From Bacteriovoracaceae bacterium (GTDB lineage: Bacteria > Bdellovibrionota > UBA1018): DNA of 64,000 bases. The DNA is taken from contig CANFJX010000006.1 in the NCBI GenBank assembly GCA_947447665.1, positions 62,001-126,000 on the forward strand, written 5' to 3'. This document shows positions 9,398-16,100 of this stretch, in pieces; within the stretch, counting starts at the first letter, position 1; each line of letters begins with the position of its first letter. The position numbers and the translations under genes were made by a program. The notes beneath the pieces are model-generated. The model searched no databases, had not been told where the DNA came from, and saw only the letters and a list, made by a program, of their open reading frames with translations.

Positions 9398-10354
9398 CTA
9401 ACTCGGCAATGGGGACGGAGTCGTTATTACTAACGGTGACGGTGAGGGCGACGCTGGCCGTGAGGGTGAAGGTGACGAAGTGGGCCCGGCACCTCGGACG
9501 CTTTTAAGCAAAACGGTGGGCTGGAAATCCTTCAACGCAGGAACCAATTCGCCCAGCGCAAAAACTTTCCGGTGATCGTAGACTTCGTCCACAAAGTGAT
9601 CATGGAGAAACTTGGGCCGTTCAGATTGAATTTTTTGAGGCGTCCAGTCGGGGTGCTCTGCCCTGAGCTTAAAAGAGAGATCAGAAAGAACGGCGCCCTC
9701 GATACTGTCCTTCCAAATGATCCCTGATCCCAAAATCCTCACTGGGCCCCAATCTGCCTCGAAAAAACTAAATGAACTAAACTGGGTCAACGCAGGCCCC
9801 TTTTTTTCGATCACCACTAAATCGTCACTCACCCAGACACGGTTACTTCGCCTGAGCTGAATGCGATAGACTTTGCGGTCCGGCCTGGATCGATCCACCT
9901 GATAGGCCGTCTCATAGAGGACATCTGGAACAAAAGGAAACGCAATCGGCCTCTGCCACCGGGTGAGAATTTCAGTCGAATTCTGCTTGATGACTTTAAT
10001 TTCCTTAAACTCTGGAAATAAATCCACATAATGCCCAAAATCACTCATGATTTGATCTAAAGTCTCGATGGGCGCAGAAACCATCATCTTTTTTTGAAGC
10101 CCAATATAATCCTCATCACCGGGAGTCTCCCAAGCCTTGGCTAAAATTGGAGATTCCCTGTGTTTCAAGTCGGACTGCGGCGGTTCGGAGAATTGCGGTG
10201 GCCAATGAGCCAAAACTTGATCCAGGATCGTACGGTAGTACTGGGAACCCTTTAATTCTTCAGAATCCCCCGAAACGGCTATCCACTCGACTCCAAAAGT
10301 AATTAAAAAAACAAAGAGACTATATAGCGCAAATTTTTTAACCATCCCACTCAT
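9398..10354 (-). CDS. SRPBCC/START-like (polyketide cyclase/lipid-transfer fold) protein with N-terminal membrane anchor and Ser/Pro-rich C-terminus
   Basis: VSAPIETLDQIMSDFGHYVDLFPEFKEIKVIKQ resembles SRPBCC; tail GPTSSPSPSRPASPSPSPLVITTPSPLPS. Confidence 0.6.
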   Translation of the reverse strand: MSGMVKKFALYSLFVFLITFGVEWIAVSGDSEELKGSQYYRTILDQVLAHWPPQFSEPPQSDLKHRESPILAKAWETPGDEDYIGLQKKMMVSAPIETLDQIMSDFGHYVDLFPEFKEIKVIKQNSTEILTRWQRPIAFPFVPDVLYETAYQVDRSRPDRKVYRIQLRRSNRVWVSDDLVVIEKKGPALTQFSSFSFFEADWGPVRILGSGIIWKDSIEGAVLSDLSFKLRAEHPDWTPQKIQSERPKFLHDHFVDEVYDHRKVFALGELVPALKDFQPTVLLKSVRGAGPTSSPSPSRPASPSPSPLVITTPSPLPS

Positions 10355-10419: not shown

Positions 10420-11769
10420 CTATTCGCTCAAGAATGACGCTAACTTAACCAAATCTTCAGCCCCACCCCCAAAACTCTTATGCTTCTCGATGATCTCCTG
10501 ATAGACGCGGGCAGAATGCGTCTCAGTCCGTTCAAAAGTATTATAATCGACTCTAAATAATCCAAACCGGGGGTCAAAACCCTTCACCCACTCAAAGTTA
10601 TCCAAGAGCGACCAGTAGTAGTATCCCCGGACATCGATTCCGTTTTGCCTTGCCATGGCCACTTCGCGGAGATGCTCCCGAATATAACGGGGACGCAGAT
10701 CATCATCTCGATCTGCGATTCCATTTTCGGTGATATACACCGGAAGCTCATAACTTCCTGCAATTTTCAGAACTTTTTGGAGCCCCTGAGGATGTATTGG
10801 CCAATCAACATCAGATGCAGCCTCTCCTTTTCTAGCAAAAGCAACATTGATCGGCGGGCCGTTTAATTTGGGCGTAAACTGAACCCGAGCACGAGTGTAA
10901 TAATTAATTCCTAAATAATCAACGCTCACTCGTTCATTAGCCTCAGGCACTATCGGCGCTTGCGCCATCAGCATGGGAAAACCGAATCGCTGCCCCCTTC
11001 CGGTGATCGCATCCAGCCAAGAGATATTATAAAATTGATGGAGTTGCTCGGCTAACCACCGCTCAATTACGCTCCAAGTCCGGTCGGGTACAAAATCAAT
11101 CATATTATGGGCGATACCCACTTGGGGGGTAATTTCCTTCCATCGACTTTCACTTTTTGGAATTTCTCGATGGATCAAATCATAGGCGATCACATGAGAC
11201 TTGAGGAGATGGTGACAGGCCATCCGGGCCTTCTCTGGCGAATAAATAGCAGGCGGCATGAACTGACCCAAGTAGCAGCCCGCCGTTAAGACCATCGGCT
11301 CATTAATAGTGCACCAGAGAGCTACCTTTGCACCCAGCCGCTCCACTACTTTGCGTGTGAAACGACCAAAAAGCTCGGGCGCCCGCTCCCACGAAAATCC
11401 CCCTTGCTCCGCCATCCAGAGAGGCAAGGTAAAATGATGGAGCGTCAACATCGGAACTAAGCCGAGACGCTCGCACTCCTGAATCAACTCGAAATACCAA
11501 TCAAAAGCCTCTGAATCCCACTGTCCCTCCTGGGGCTCCAATCTGGACCATTCTACCGAAAAACGATAAGAATTCATCCCCAGGTCAGCAGCTCGCTTTA
11601 AATCTTCTCGAAATCGATGCCAGTGATCAGTGCAAGATCCAGAGCGCTCTCCGCGCTCAATTTTTCCCAATGCTTCCCAAGCCCACCAGTCATTTTTGTC
11701 ATTGTAGCCCTCTATTTGATGACTACTGGTGGCTGCCCCCCAAAGAAAGGTTGGATTCGAATGATTCAC
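10420..11769 (-). CDS. GH1 beta-glucosidase
   Basis: FLWGAATSSHQIEG, TINEPMV (acid/base), YITENGIAD (nucleophile), YYYWSLLDNFEWVKGFDPRFGL; no signal peptide. Confidence 0.96.
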   Translation of the reverse strand: MNHSNPTFLWGAATSSHQIEGYNDKNDWWAWEALGKIERGERSGSCTDHWHRFREDLKRAADLGMNSYRFSVEWSRLEPQEGQWDSEAFDWYFELIQECERLGLVPMLTLHHFTLPLWMAEQGGFSWERAPELFGRFTRKVVERLGAKVALWCTINEPMVLTAGCYLGQFMPPAIYSPEKARMACHHLLKSHVIAYDLIHREIPKSESRWKEITPQVGIAHNMIDFVPDRTWSVIERWLAEQLHQFYNISWLDAITGRGQRFGFPMLMAQAPIVPEANERVSVDYLGINYYTRARVQFTPKLNGPPINVAFARKGEAASDVDWPIHPQGLQKVLKIAGSYELPVYITENGIADRDDDLRPRYIREHLREVAMARQNGIDVRGYYYWSLLDNFEWVKGFDPRFGLFRVDYNTFERTETHSARVYQEIIEKHKSFGGGAEDLVKLASFLSE

Positions 11770-12940
11770 TCAGATCTCCGTCTTCTATTAGCTCGAGTTG
11801 AGTCTGGGTTCCGACCCTGAGTTTTTGACCTCGCCAATAAACCGTATTGCCAAAACCAATCACTCCCCAAAGTGGGATCGCCGAGACCTCGCGAACAAAC
11901 CAAAGACCCGGATCGGCCCACGACAACCTGCCCTCGACCGCTTGAATAAGAAGCAAATCGCAGACCAACCAAGCACTCAAGTGAAGAAAAAGAAAAGGCA
12001 AAATCGGTGTACCAAACCCATGATTGAGTGCCCATCCTCCCAGTAAACCAGAAACCACCGAGTTGATCAATATTTCTAGTGTAAATCCAAAACCCGATAT
12101 CGACTTTCTAATTCTTCCCCAACGGATATGACGACCCCAAAAAGAACTTAAGGACTGTTGTCCTATGTGTTGCTGCACCAACTCGGAAGTTAAAACGACC
12201 TTCAAACCTAATTCTCTTATCTTCAATCCAAAGATAAAATCTTCCGCCAAGTAGTTTGCGATACCTTTTAAACCGCCAAATCGAGCGGCTACGGATTTTT
12301 GGAATAACATGACTTTTCCAGAAACTGCCGGATACCCAAAAACATCCATGATCGCTCCCCAGCGCGTCAAATGGGTGTTCAAAATTAGACTTTCGAGCCT
12401 ACCCCCCAGACCAAAAGAATCTAAGCCAGCAATGCTGGAGGTAATCAATCCTACTCCCGGACTTATGTACTCAACTAACTCTTTTAAGTACGTTGGCGTC
12501 GCTCGAACATTGCTATCGCTAATCAAAACCCAATCATTTTTCGCCTGTTGGTAGCCCTTGATCAAATTGTCGACCTTTGGGTTAAATCCTATCTTTGCCT
12601 CGCCTACGAGAACTTGAGCAATAACGGAAGGATATTTCTGAACCAAATCCCGAACCACAGAACAAGCAGGATCGGCCTCGCTTGCGACGCAAAAAATAAG
12701 CTCAAAGTTTGGGTATTCGAGGCGAAAAAAACTTTCCACACATTCCCGAATTCCAGGATCCAAGTTTTTCAATGGTTTAAGAATTGACACAGGTGGCTGA
12801 TAAATCAGGCATCTCTTCGATCGTTCTGAGCTCTGAGTTCGTCCTCTTTGAATCAGCCTCAAAGCTAAAACCGTACCGGCAACTGCGAATCCCGCGACTA
12901 GGACCCAAATCAAAAAACAAAAGTAGACCATGAGAGTCAT
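11723..12940 (-). CDS. GT21 ceramide glucosyltransferase-like (UGCG/HpnI-type) membrane glycosyltransferase
   Basis: VSILKPLKNLDPGIRECVESFFRLEYPNFELIFCVASEADPA, GFNPKVDNLIKGYQQAKNDWVLISDSNVRA, NYLAEDF, HIRWGRIR ((Q/R)xxRW-like), C-terminal TM helices. Confidence 0.9.
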   Translation of the reverse strand: MTLMVYFCFLIWVLVAGFAVAGTVLALRLIQRGRTQSSERSKRCLIYQPPVSILKPLKNLDPGIRECVESFFRLEYPNFELIFCVASEADPACSVVRDLVQKYPSVIAQVLVGEAKIGFNPKVDNLIKGYQQAKNDWVLISDSNVRATPTYLKELVEYISPGVGLITSSIAGLDSFGLGGRLESLILNTHLTRWGAIMDVFGYPAVSGKVMLFQKSVAARFGGLKGIANYLAEDFIFGLKIRELGLKVVLTSELVQQHIGQQSLSSFWGRHIRWGRIRKSISGFGFTLEILINSVVSGLLGGWALNHGFGTPILPFLFLHLSAWLVCDLLLIQAVEGRLSWADPGLWFVREVSAIPLWGVIGFGNTVYWRGQKLRVGTQTQLELIEDGDLSESFESNLSLGGSHQ

Positions 12941-13033: not shown

Positions 13034-14959
13034 TCAAACGCCGCGTTCAAGCTCAAGACTGAGCTCTTCCCAACGAACAAGCTTTTCGGTCAAGCTTTGC
13101 TCGAGCTTTTTCTGCTCCTCAATCAACTGAAGGGATTTATTTTTATCTTCATAGGTGCCTACGTCGCCCAAGATGCGATGAAGTGCATCCTGCCGGAGCT
13201 CTAACGCGGCAATTTCAGCTTCTATTTTAATCTTTTCCCGTTCCCAGCTTTTTTTCTGGTTATTCGAAGGACTCTTCGTTTCTTTTGGAGCAAAAGTGGA
13301 TTCCTGTTTTCCCGACTGAACAGGTCGAGATTCAGCAGCCAGAATTTCAACCTGCTTTTTCTTGAGGTAATCCTCGTACTGCCCCAAAAGTTGCAAAACC
13401 TGGGAGCCCTGACCCAAATTTGAACTAGGCACGATCTCAAGGACAGAATCCACGAGAGGGGAAATAAATTCTCGATCATGAGAAACGACGCACAGAGTAC
13501 CCGAATAGTTCCTTAGCGCTTCTAAAAGAATCTCTTTTGACTCGATATCCAGGTGATTCGTGGGTTCATCCAAAATCAGGAAATTAGAGGGTGACAGCAG
13601 GAGTTTGGCGAGAGCCACCCGAGCTTTCTCCCCACCGGACAGCACTCCGCACTTCTTTTCGACCTGATCTCCAGAAAATAAGAAGGCTCCGGCGATTCCC
13701 CGAACCTGACTGAGAGGCATTTCAGGAGCTACCTCTTCCAACTCCTGAAGAATGGTCCGATCGAGCTTCAAACTCTCCGCCTGAAGCTGGGCATAATACC
13801 CCACCACCGCCCCGTGCCCTAGTTTGACGTACCCCTGACTCGGAGTCGCCTTACCGGTCAAAAGCTTCAGTAAGGTTGTTTTTCCTGCTCCGTTCACTCC
13901 AACAATCGCAACTCGAGAACCCCTCTGAAGGGTCCAGTTGACTCCCTTAAAAATCAAACGCTCCCCGTAGCGCATCCCTAGGTCCTGAAGACTCACCACC
14001 TCTTTTCCACTGGGAGGAGCGGGTGGAAAACGAAACCGAATCGATGCTCGGGCTTCAGGCAACTCAATTCGCTCCATTTTATCTAACAGCTTGAGCCGAC
14101 TCTGCGCCTGACGAGCCTTGGTCGCCTTAGCCCCGAATCGATCCACGAAACGTTCAATTTCAGCTATTTTTGCCTGTTGTCCTTGATACTGAGCTTCTAG
14201 CACGGCCAGCCGCTCCGCTTTTTGAAGGCGATAGGCATCTAAATTTCCCCGATACGAGACGAGACGGCGCTGATCAATATCCCAGACCTCATCCACTAAT
14301 CGATTGAGGAAGGCCCGATCATGGCTAATCATGAGGAGCGCCCCGCGGAAGCGTCTCAAAAACTCCTCCAGCCAGAGCAGAGATTCCAAATCGAGATGAT
14401 TGGTCGGCTCGTCTAATAGCAAAAGATCTGGATCCATCAGCAGAATACGTGCAAGAGCTACTCGCATCAGCCAACCCCCGCTGAATTCCGGGAGACTCCG
14501 ATGGAAGTCACTTTCTTTAAATCCGATACCGCTCAGGATCTGCTTAGCTCTCGCCTCGAGGCGGTCTTCGTCCATGAGATCGACCTCTTCAAGAATTCGT
14601 CCATAGCGCTCGAGCGAGGCAGAATCGGAGGGATCTTCGGATAAGCTCTGTTCAAGCTCTTCTTTAGTTTTCAGCAACTCCTCGCGACGACCGTCGAGCC
14701 GCATGACTTCTGAGAGGACGGTTTTTCCGCTAAGCCGTGGGAGGTCTTGGGCTAAATACCCAATGGAGAGATGGGAAGCTCGGGTGACTTTTCCAGAGTC
14801 GGCCTCCTCTTGATGGAGAAGAATCCGAATCAAGGTGCTCTTGCCTGCTCCATTCGGACCGATGAGGGCCACGCGGGATCGGTGCCCGAGTTGGGCGCTA
14901 GCGCCTTCAAATAGCACTTTGGCGCCATACTGCTTGCTAATATTTTGGATGTGAATCAC
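13034..14959 (-). CDS. ABC-F family ATPase (Uup/YheS-like)
   Basis: Two Walker A (GPNGAGKST, GVNGAGKTT), two signature motifs (EFSGGWLMRVALA, LSGGEKARVALA), interdomain linker, coiled-coil C-terminus. Confidence 0.95.
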   Translation of the reverse strand: MIHIQNISKQYGAKVLFEGASAQLGHRSRVALIGPNGAGKSTLIRILLHQEEADSGKVTRASHLSIGYLAQDLPRLSGKTVLSEVMRLDGRREELLKTKEELEQSLSEDPSDSASLERYGRILEEVDLMDEDRLEARAKQILSGIGFKESDFHRSLPEFSGGWLMRVALARILLMDPDLLLLDEPTNHLDLESLLWLEEFLRRFRGALLMISHDRAFLNRLVDEVWDIDQRRLVSYRGNLDAYRLQKAERLAVLEAQYQGQQAKIAEIERFVDRFGAKATKARQAQSRLKLLDKMERIELPEARASIRFRFPPAPPSGKEVVSLQDLGMRYGERLIFKGVNWTLQRGSRVAIVGVNGAGKTTLLKLLTGKATPSQGYVKLGHGAVVGYYAQLQAESLKLDRTILQELEEVAPEMPLSQVRGIAGAFLFSGDQVEKKCGVLSGGEKARVALAKLLLSPSNFLILDEPTNHLDIESKEILLEALRNYSGTLCVVSHDREFISPLVDSVLEIVPSSNLGQGSQVLQLLGQYEDYLKKKQVEILAAESRPVQSGKQESTFAPKETKSPSNNQKKSWEREKIKIEAEIAALELRQDALHRILGDVGTYEDKNKSLQLIEEQKKLEQSLTEKLVRWEELSLELERGV

Positions 14960-15074: not shown

Positions 15075-16100
15075 TTAGACTTGCGCTGCCTGAACTGGCT
15101 CCGGTGGGCGAGCCATTTTCGGACTCTTGACTTCTTTCAACCGAGAGAGTGGGAGACGAGAGACTCGACTAAAAAGCCCCAATTTTGGGTCTGTCAAAAA
15201 GCGGAACAAAAGCTTGGTCCACGACATATGGTAAAATAGGTTGTTATACATCTCTGGAGCGATCGCCCGTACCTGAGGGAGCCGGGACCACGAAACACGC
15301 ATCAAATCATGATGCTCGTTGTGATAGCCAACGTTGAAAGCGACTTTATTCAGAGGGCCGTAATAGGAGTAGGTTTCTTGCTTTTCGTGGAGAACGTAGT
15401 GCTCCTGAATCCAACGAGCCCCGACAGGATGTAAGCCGATCGAGAAAATACTCGACCCAACTAGATAGGCCAAGGCCCCCCATCCAAAAAAGTAGGTCAT
15501 TGCAGCCAAGAAAGAAAGCTCGACCGCATAGTTAAGAATCACCCAACGGTTCACTAACTCAATTCCCTTCAAATAAGGAACTCGGAGGAGTTGCGAAAAA
15601 AAGTAGCAAAGATACCAGAGGGATTTACGAAAGGTCGAATTACCGACCCACTGCACCTCAAAAGGTCTCGGCAGATCTGCATCTCGATCGAGCTCCCCCT
15701 GATAGAGGTGGTGCTTGATATGAAAAATCCGAAACGAAATCGCAGAGGGAAAAATAATAGGCAAATTTGCGAAAATCTGGAGCAAACTATTGCTGACATC
15801 GCCCTTAAAAACAAGATTATGGGTACACTCGTGAATTAAAACCCAGAGAGCATGATTGGCCACGGCCCCCACGGTATAGGTCCCAATGAAAATGACCCAC
15901 CATGGCTGGTTTGAAAACACGATCGTGCAAACAATCTGGAGAGCGACAATACCCAAAACATACCAGGCTGTGAAAGGCGTATTTCCAAAAAGCTTCTTCA
16001 CTTCAGGATGCGCCTTTAAAATTTGCTGGGTTCGCCCAAGATGTGGCTCCGGATAAGTAACCTGAATCATTTCAAATGATTGAGCAGTTGATGTACGCAT
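15075..16100 (-). CDS. sphingolipid delta-4 (dihydroceramide) desaturase-like membrane desaturase
   Basis: HECTH, HIKHH, HNEHH histidine boxes; N-terminal PHLGRTQQILKAHPEVKKLFG; ETYSYYGPLNKVAFNVGYHNEHHD matches the DEGS family. Confidence 0.88.
   Translation of the reverse strand: MRTSTAQSFEMIQVTYPEPHLGRTQQILKAHPEVKKLFGNTPFTAWYVLGIVALQIVCTIVFSNQPWWVIFIGTYTVGAVANHALWVLIHECTHNLVFKGDVSNSLLQIFANLPIIFPSAISFRIFHIKHHLYQGELDRDADLPRPFEVQWVGNSTFRKSLWYLCYFFSQLLRVPYLKGIELVNRWVILNYAVELSFLAAMTYFFGWGALAYLVGSSIFSIGLHPVGARWIQEHYVLHEKQETYSYYGPLNKVAFNVGYHNEHHDLMRVSWSRLPQVRAIAPEMYNNLFYHMSWTKLLFRFLTDPKLGLFSRVSRLPLSRLKEVKSPKMARPPEPVQAAQV

Follow-up and report, generated by a model that had tools for sequence, protein, structure and literature searches.

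The window, by which we mean the whole 64,000-nt stretch of DNA that was analysed, belongs to a Bdellovibrionota MAG (2.53 Mb in 21 contigs, estimated to be 95.5% complete). An open reading frame coding for a desaturase-like protein, here called DES, lies exactly where the preliminary description had placed it, at positions 15075-16100; the strand, which that description did not give, is minus. The gene, its conserved elements and the neighbouring genes discussed below are as follows.

15075..16100, minus strand: DES, Lipid_DES/DEGS-family protein, 341 aa from ATG, integral membrane, with His boxes of the di-iron type (ORF, Pfam, relatives and model)
15975..16055, minus strand: Lipid_DES (PF08557) N-terminal domain, residues 16-42 (Pfam)
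15816..15833, minus strand: His box 1, HECTHN, residues 90-95; both His invariant in both alignments
15708..15722, minus strand: His box 2, HIKHH, residues 127-131; three His invariant in both alignments
15306..15323, minus strand: His box 3, HNEHHD, residues 260-265, inside ETYSYYG...NVGYHNEHHD; His and Asp invariant in both alignments
13034..14959, minus strand: ABC-F family ATPase, directly downstream of DES after a 115-bp gap
11723..12940, minus strand: GT21 glycosyltransferase, ceramide-glucosyltransferase-like, with D1, D2, D3 and RxxRW motifs; Glyco_transf_21 at 144.5 bits (Pfam)
10420..11769, minus strand: GH1 beta-glycosidase, overlapping the GT21 gene by 47 bp

Both Pfam domains of DES score far above the level of chance. 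The Lipid_DES domain reaches 37.1 bits over residues 16-42 (gathering cut-off 23) and FA_desaturase reaches 92.9 bits over residues 67-290 (cut-off 29.7); the assignment to the DEGS family, made earlier by eye, is upheld by these two matches. The strings on which that assignment had been built, EPHLGRTQQILKAHPEVKKLFG, HECTHN, HIKHH and ETYSYYGPLNKVAFNVGYHNEHHD (the last with HNEHHD), are all present in DES. The three His boxes have the forms HxxxH, HxxHH and HxxHH, with the histidines kept in the alignments of 19 and 34 relatives. Translation could start at M1 or at M11, and the conserved core of the relatives begins at about residue 11. The gene is single-copy in the host genome. No NCBIfam equivalog scored above its cut-off, the PDB sequence search matched no solved structure, no relatives were found in viral contigs, and a scan of the locus for promoters and terminators gave hits at chance level only.

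A model of DES was made with AlphaFold2 from the 34-sequence alignment (pLDDT 89.4, pTM 0.86). When the model was compared with PDB structures, the top two matches were chains of chloroplast motor complexes (TM ~0.6); the next was FtAlkB (8sbb, E 0.003), and the stearoyl-CoA desaturase SCD1 appeared, with a weaker match, in the top five. The predicted fold is thus a confident membrane-desaturase-like one, in agreement with a membrane di-iron desaturase.

Eukaryotic contamination was considered as the source of the gene and rejected, because the contig carrying it (156 kb) has even base composition and the order of genes (DES, ABC-F, GT21, GH1) is repeated in a sister MAG.

The Lipid_DES domain was searched for in 98 genomes that range from the genus of the window to the whole phylum; 22 scored above the cut-off, as did none of the 14 control genomes, Caulobacter and Bacteroides among them. 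At least 594 stretches encoding relatives of DES came out of a scan that covered 85,488 species genomes. The best 80 of these at least 594 stretches come from Bdellovibrionota, Myxococcota (Archangium, Vitiosangium), Ignavibacteriota, Nitrospinota, Gemmatimonadota, Verrucomicrobiota and others, as well as from the Bacteroidota genera Mucilaginibacter, Chitinophaga, Sediminibacterium and Ferruginibacter. Among the matches listed, the closest relatives with a name are MAGs that bear the labels Bacteriovoracaceae, Bdellovibrionales or Oligoflexia, all of them Bdellovibrionota. Two other MAGs of the genus have sister genes 81-82% identical to DES; identity is 50-56% to the Myxococcota members and ~46-55% to the Bacteroidota members. 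Every box histidine is kept in the alignment of 19 DES proteins of the phylum, and all 34 members of the cross-phylum alignment score for both Lipid_DES and FA_desaturase. The DES of the window is therefore one among hundreds in a bacterial family and not a one-off loan from a eukaryote.

Neighbours that recur beside DES genes in Bacteroidota are lineage-specific only, and none is plainly related to lipids. In a Nitrospinaceae MAG (L054:7362-9382), the gene immediately preceding DES, in the same orientation, codes for a second FA_desaturase protein.

The comparison with eukaryotes employed three provisional sequences (human DEGS1, fly ifc and Arabidopsis DES), which are plausible given their mutual identity of 52-62%. 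To these provisional sequences DES is 38-42% identical over ~300-318 residues, and a 24-residue string of DES has 21 of 24 residues in common with what we take to be the human DEGS1 sequence. Animal DEGS proteins presumably start with a MGxxVSRxDFEW stretch, which the DES of the window does not have. In the tree, DES falls within well-supported clades of five and eight Bdellovibrionota rows, and the provisional eukaryotic rows form a branch of their own, apart from the clade of DES. Two bacterial copies of a second type (L006:670-1677 in genome G034 and L018:1381-2448 in genome G028) group with the provisional eukaryotic rows with 99/99 support; G028 carries both DES types, the second lying apart from the bacterial clade of the window. 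Rooting of the tree with other desaturases was tried and abandoned, the outgroup branches being saturated and too distant for the root to have meaning. The grouping of DES with DEGS as opposed to acyl desaturases was examined in this tree of provisional eukaryotic rows and outgroups too distant to root; membership in the family is clear by score.

The preliminary description had presented the gene as eukaryote-like, implying either delta-4-unsaturated ceramides or horizontal transfer. The framing as a eukaryote-like oddity or as a transfer is not supported, given the count of at least 594 bacterial stretches and the position of DES inside a well-supported Bdellovibrionota clade. While the motif strings close to animal DEGS1 and the level of identity to the provisional DEGS sequences would agree with recent transfer from a eukaryote, the close sister genes within the genus, the graded identities to Myxococcota and Bacteroidota, the hundreds of bacterial members and the separate position of the provisional eukaryotic rows make such a transfer extremely improbable.

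Genes for synthesis of sphingoid bases were looked for in the host genome, as had been proposed for serine palmitoyltransferase (SPT), bCerS and CerR. This turned up two SPT-superfamily proteins: BioF, encoded in a biotin operon, and an SPT-like protein. The top NCBIfam family of the latter is SerpalmtaseCFB (481 bits, below its cut-off of 640) and its top PDB matches are the Sphingobacterium-type SPT structures 8guh and 3a2b (375 bits). Directly downstream of the SPT gene lies a gene for a GNAT protein that aligns end to end with YghO of E. coli BL21 (33% identity over 379 aa, E 1e-68). From its cluster position, YghO corresponds to the gene named as the ceramide N-acyltransferase of the rhodobacterial ceramide cluster (PMC9386255). 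Homologues of SPT and bCerS (of YghO type and adjoining SPT) are thus present, but a search with E. coli CerR as query gave no CerR homologue. The preliminary description had named two outcomes as fatal to its proposal: a missing Lipid_DES match together with a tree nesting DES among ordinary acyl-lipid desaturases, or a genome devoid of sphingoid-base synthesis genes. Neither applies, as both the domain and such genes exist in this genome. Judged from this gene content, the host most likely makes ceramides. The DES and SPT genes are located on different contigs, and clustering of the two genes was not found in the loci of named relatives, save for one weak partial match.

The host genome codes for three further FA_desaturase proteins, which we named from their sequences as AlkB-like, acyl-CoA delta-9-like and CrtW-like. 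Given the separate acyl desaturase-like gene (L125), DES would not be needed for bulk unsaturation of fatty acids. The CrtW-like protein (L126:1243-2896, G000:C8) is encoded beside a CruF-type carotenoid hydratase-like membrane protein; these are probable carotenoid genes.

We asked how often DES occurs together with base-forming genes. In the phylum set, SPT at 420 bits or more was found in 73 of the 98 genomes and in 20 of the 22 DES-positive ones. The two DES-positive genomes without a strong SPT are both fragmented: one (G034) carries, close to the start of a contig, a gene of YghO type, and the other (G002) has only a 20-residue YghO-type piece at a contig edge. If these two, as well as one DES-negative genome that carries a gene of YghO type, are counted, all or part of the sphingolipid pathway is present in 22/22 DES-positive versus 54/76 DES-negative genomes (Fisher p 0.0016, kinship ignored); with the strict SPT criterion applied to the same 98 genomes, p is 0.036, again with kinship ignored. 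Since kinship is ignored and SPT is nearly universal within the window's own family, the association should be read as a test of consistency and not as proof. Most SPT-bearing genomes of the phylum are without DES, so DES is not required for them.

Outside the phylum, SPT at 470 bits or more was found in 22 of 28 DES-positive genomes. The six SPT-less genomes are three Chitinophagaceae and three MAGs (two Verrucomicrobia and one Gemmatimonadetes). Sediminibacterium roseum (G106, L107:1467-2603) has DES, no SPT and a homologue of cysteate-C-fatty acyltransferase (558 bits to PDB 28eh); an SPT-less Chitinophagaceae MAG codes for a protein that looks like this homologue, and in S. soli, DES-positive and SPT-less, a match known by score alone scores similarly. 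The presence of these cysteate-C-fatty acyltransferase-like proteins points to sulfonolipid bases as the DES substrate in the SPT-less Chitinophagaceae, and in some of the Bacteroidota relatives the probable substrates of the family are capnoid (sulfonolipid) bases. The Verrucomicrobia MAG G117 (L109, L110), G120 and G114 are DES-positive and show only Kbl/BioF-type or partial SPT relatives, with no cysteate acyltransferase match.

Next to DES, the ABC-F gene is not clearly tied to lipid metabolism. A gap of 93 bp separates it from the GT21 gene, which is located ~2 kb downstream of DES. The GT21 protein matches a solved ceramide glucosyltransferase (PDB 26qf) with 209 bits over 335 residues, the catalytic motifs D1, D2, D3 and RxxRW being aligned. 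A role of this protein as HpnI in hopanoid synthesis was considered and rejected, its NCBIfam score being 204.8 bits (cut-off 310) and no squalene-hopene cyclase having been found in the genome. The GT21-GH1 pair is conserved in four genera of Bdellovibrionota (window 10420-12940, L128:14362-16861, L129:3866-6444 and L130:5117-7602). In another genus (L128) DES is again followed by ABC-F, with the GT21-GH1 pair ~12 kb away; in one further genus, the gene after the pair codes for the methyltransferase also found flanking DES in the window. Across the phylum, association of DES with GT21 is not significant (7 of 22 DES-positive genomes, p 0.18), and the link with glucosylation is therefore drawn from two genera, that of the window and one other. 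The gene that follows GH1 (window 9398-10354) codes for a 318-aa protein without a Pfam family, kept in the sister MAG and having, by eye, the look of a START/SRPBCC-type lipid-binding protein.

The family of DES, the homologues of SPT and bCerS, the GT21 neighbour and the co-occurrence of DES with base-forming genes are computed results. We infer that DES is probably a dihydroceramide delta-4 desaturase, acting on the long-chain base of N-acylated sphinganine. In the proposed route, SPT would condense serine with an acyl thioester, and the YghO/bCerS-type acyltransferase encoded next to SPT would N-acylate the base either before or after 3-keto reduction by a reductase. DES, with O2 and two electrons, would then remove hydrogens at C4 and C5 to produce the delta-4 double bond; the GT21 protein may subsequently glucosylate the ceramide. 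The substrate, the position of the double bond, the electron donor, the order of steps and the glucosylation are all put forward here as predictions.

The main rival to this proposal is that DES works as a sphingoid-base C4-hydroxylase, or as a bifunctional desaturase/hydroxylase like DEGS2, giving phytosphingosine-type bases. Trihydroxy bases, whose formation calls for a C4-hydroxylase, are present in the sphingophosphonolipids of Bacteriovorax stolpii. In one complete genome (G069) a weakly Mpo1-like protein (L120:4594-5103; 17.8 bits, below the cut-off of 24) is encoded convergently, its gene ending beside DES; Mpo1 takes part in the breakdown of phytosphingosine. Enzymes of the DEGS2 type, which is bifunctional and belongs to the same family (PMC13161914; PMC11765627), hydroxylate C4, either in place of desaturation or alongside it. 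The one FA_hydroxylase (PF04116) of this genome could, however, also be a C4-hydroxylase, and we consider a hydroxylating DES rather unlikely. Action on another lipid, such as the acyl chain of a ceramide or of a phospholipid, would suit a versatile superfamily in which the DesA-type enzyme CC_0202 of Caulobacter adds a hydroxyl group to the amide-linked acyl chain of sphingolipids (PMC11324152), as well as the few DES-positive MAGs having neither SPT nor cysteate acyltransferase matches. Such a role seems quite unlikely in view of the Lipid_DES domain kept in all 34 members scanned, the co-occurrence with base-forming genes and the separate acyl desaturase-like gene of the host. As to a capnoid base of a sulfonolipid, rather than a sphingolipid, as the substrate in the host, the Bacteroidota relatives with DES and no SPT, one of them having the cysteate-C-fatty acyltransferase homologue, provide a precedent; the search of the host gave no SPT-superfamily genes beyond the SPT-like gene and BioF, neither of the cysteate acyltransferase type, and a sulfonolipid substrate is very improbable here.

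Known bacterial sphingolipid pathways have been described with saturated bases; in eukaryotes, introduction of the 4,5 double bond is regarded as a defining step, with effects on signalling and on how membranes pack. If the bacterial family does make delta-4-unsaturated bases, these would be no eukaryotic speciality. The occurrence of the family in hundreds of genomes means that unsaturated bacterial ceramides or sulfonolipids could be sought in culturable Chitinophaga, Mucilaginibacter and Archangium; it also offers bacterial forms of a membrane enzyme whose structure was not found when the PDB was searched, and makes the origin of the eukaryotic enzyme a question. One tentative, and on balance doubtful, scenario has a phylum-spanning bacterial DES family making delta-4-unsaturated sphingoid (and capnoid) bases, in this lineage on a route from ceramide to glucosylceramide, with the eukaryotic DEGS enzymes sharing ancestry with, or deriving from, the bacterial branch of the L006/L018 type. 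No description of a bacterial Lipid_DES enzyme was found in the literature searched, where most subscription papers lay outside reach, so this absence is weak evidence. With the same reservation, the bacterial family seems almost undescribed, and what may be new is how broad it is and that it is tied to SPT or sulfonolipid genes.

Among known systems, the ceramide pathway of Caulobacter and E. coli BL21 (Spt, CerR and bCerS/YghO) has in common with the host genome SPT and a YghO-type acyltransferase, adjacent to each other in the host. The host SPT is closest to the Bacteroidetes-type enzyme and not to the ACP-linked rhodobacterial type, CerR was not found in the host with the E. coli query, and Caulobacter is without Lipid_DES. 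Compared with the solved ceramide glucosyltransferase, the GT21 protein of the window is bacterial and paired with GH1, its substrate being a prediction. The bacterial Lipid_DES homologues of Mucilaginibacter, Chitinophaga, Archangium, Ignavibacteriota and others belong to the same family as DES (~45-56% identity), but their gene neighbourhoods are unlike that of the window and the likely substrate of some is a sulfonolipid base. The eukaryotic delta-4 desaturases (DEGS1/DES1, Drosophila ifc and plant DES) occupy a tree branch separate from DES, as judged from the provisional sequences; they share with it the architecture of Lipid_DES followed by FA_desaturase, the three His boxes in the same order and the block ETYSYYGPLN...NVGYHNEHHD.
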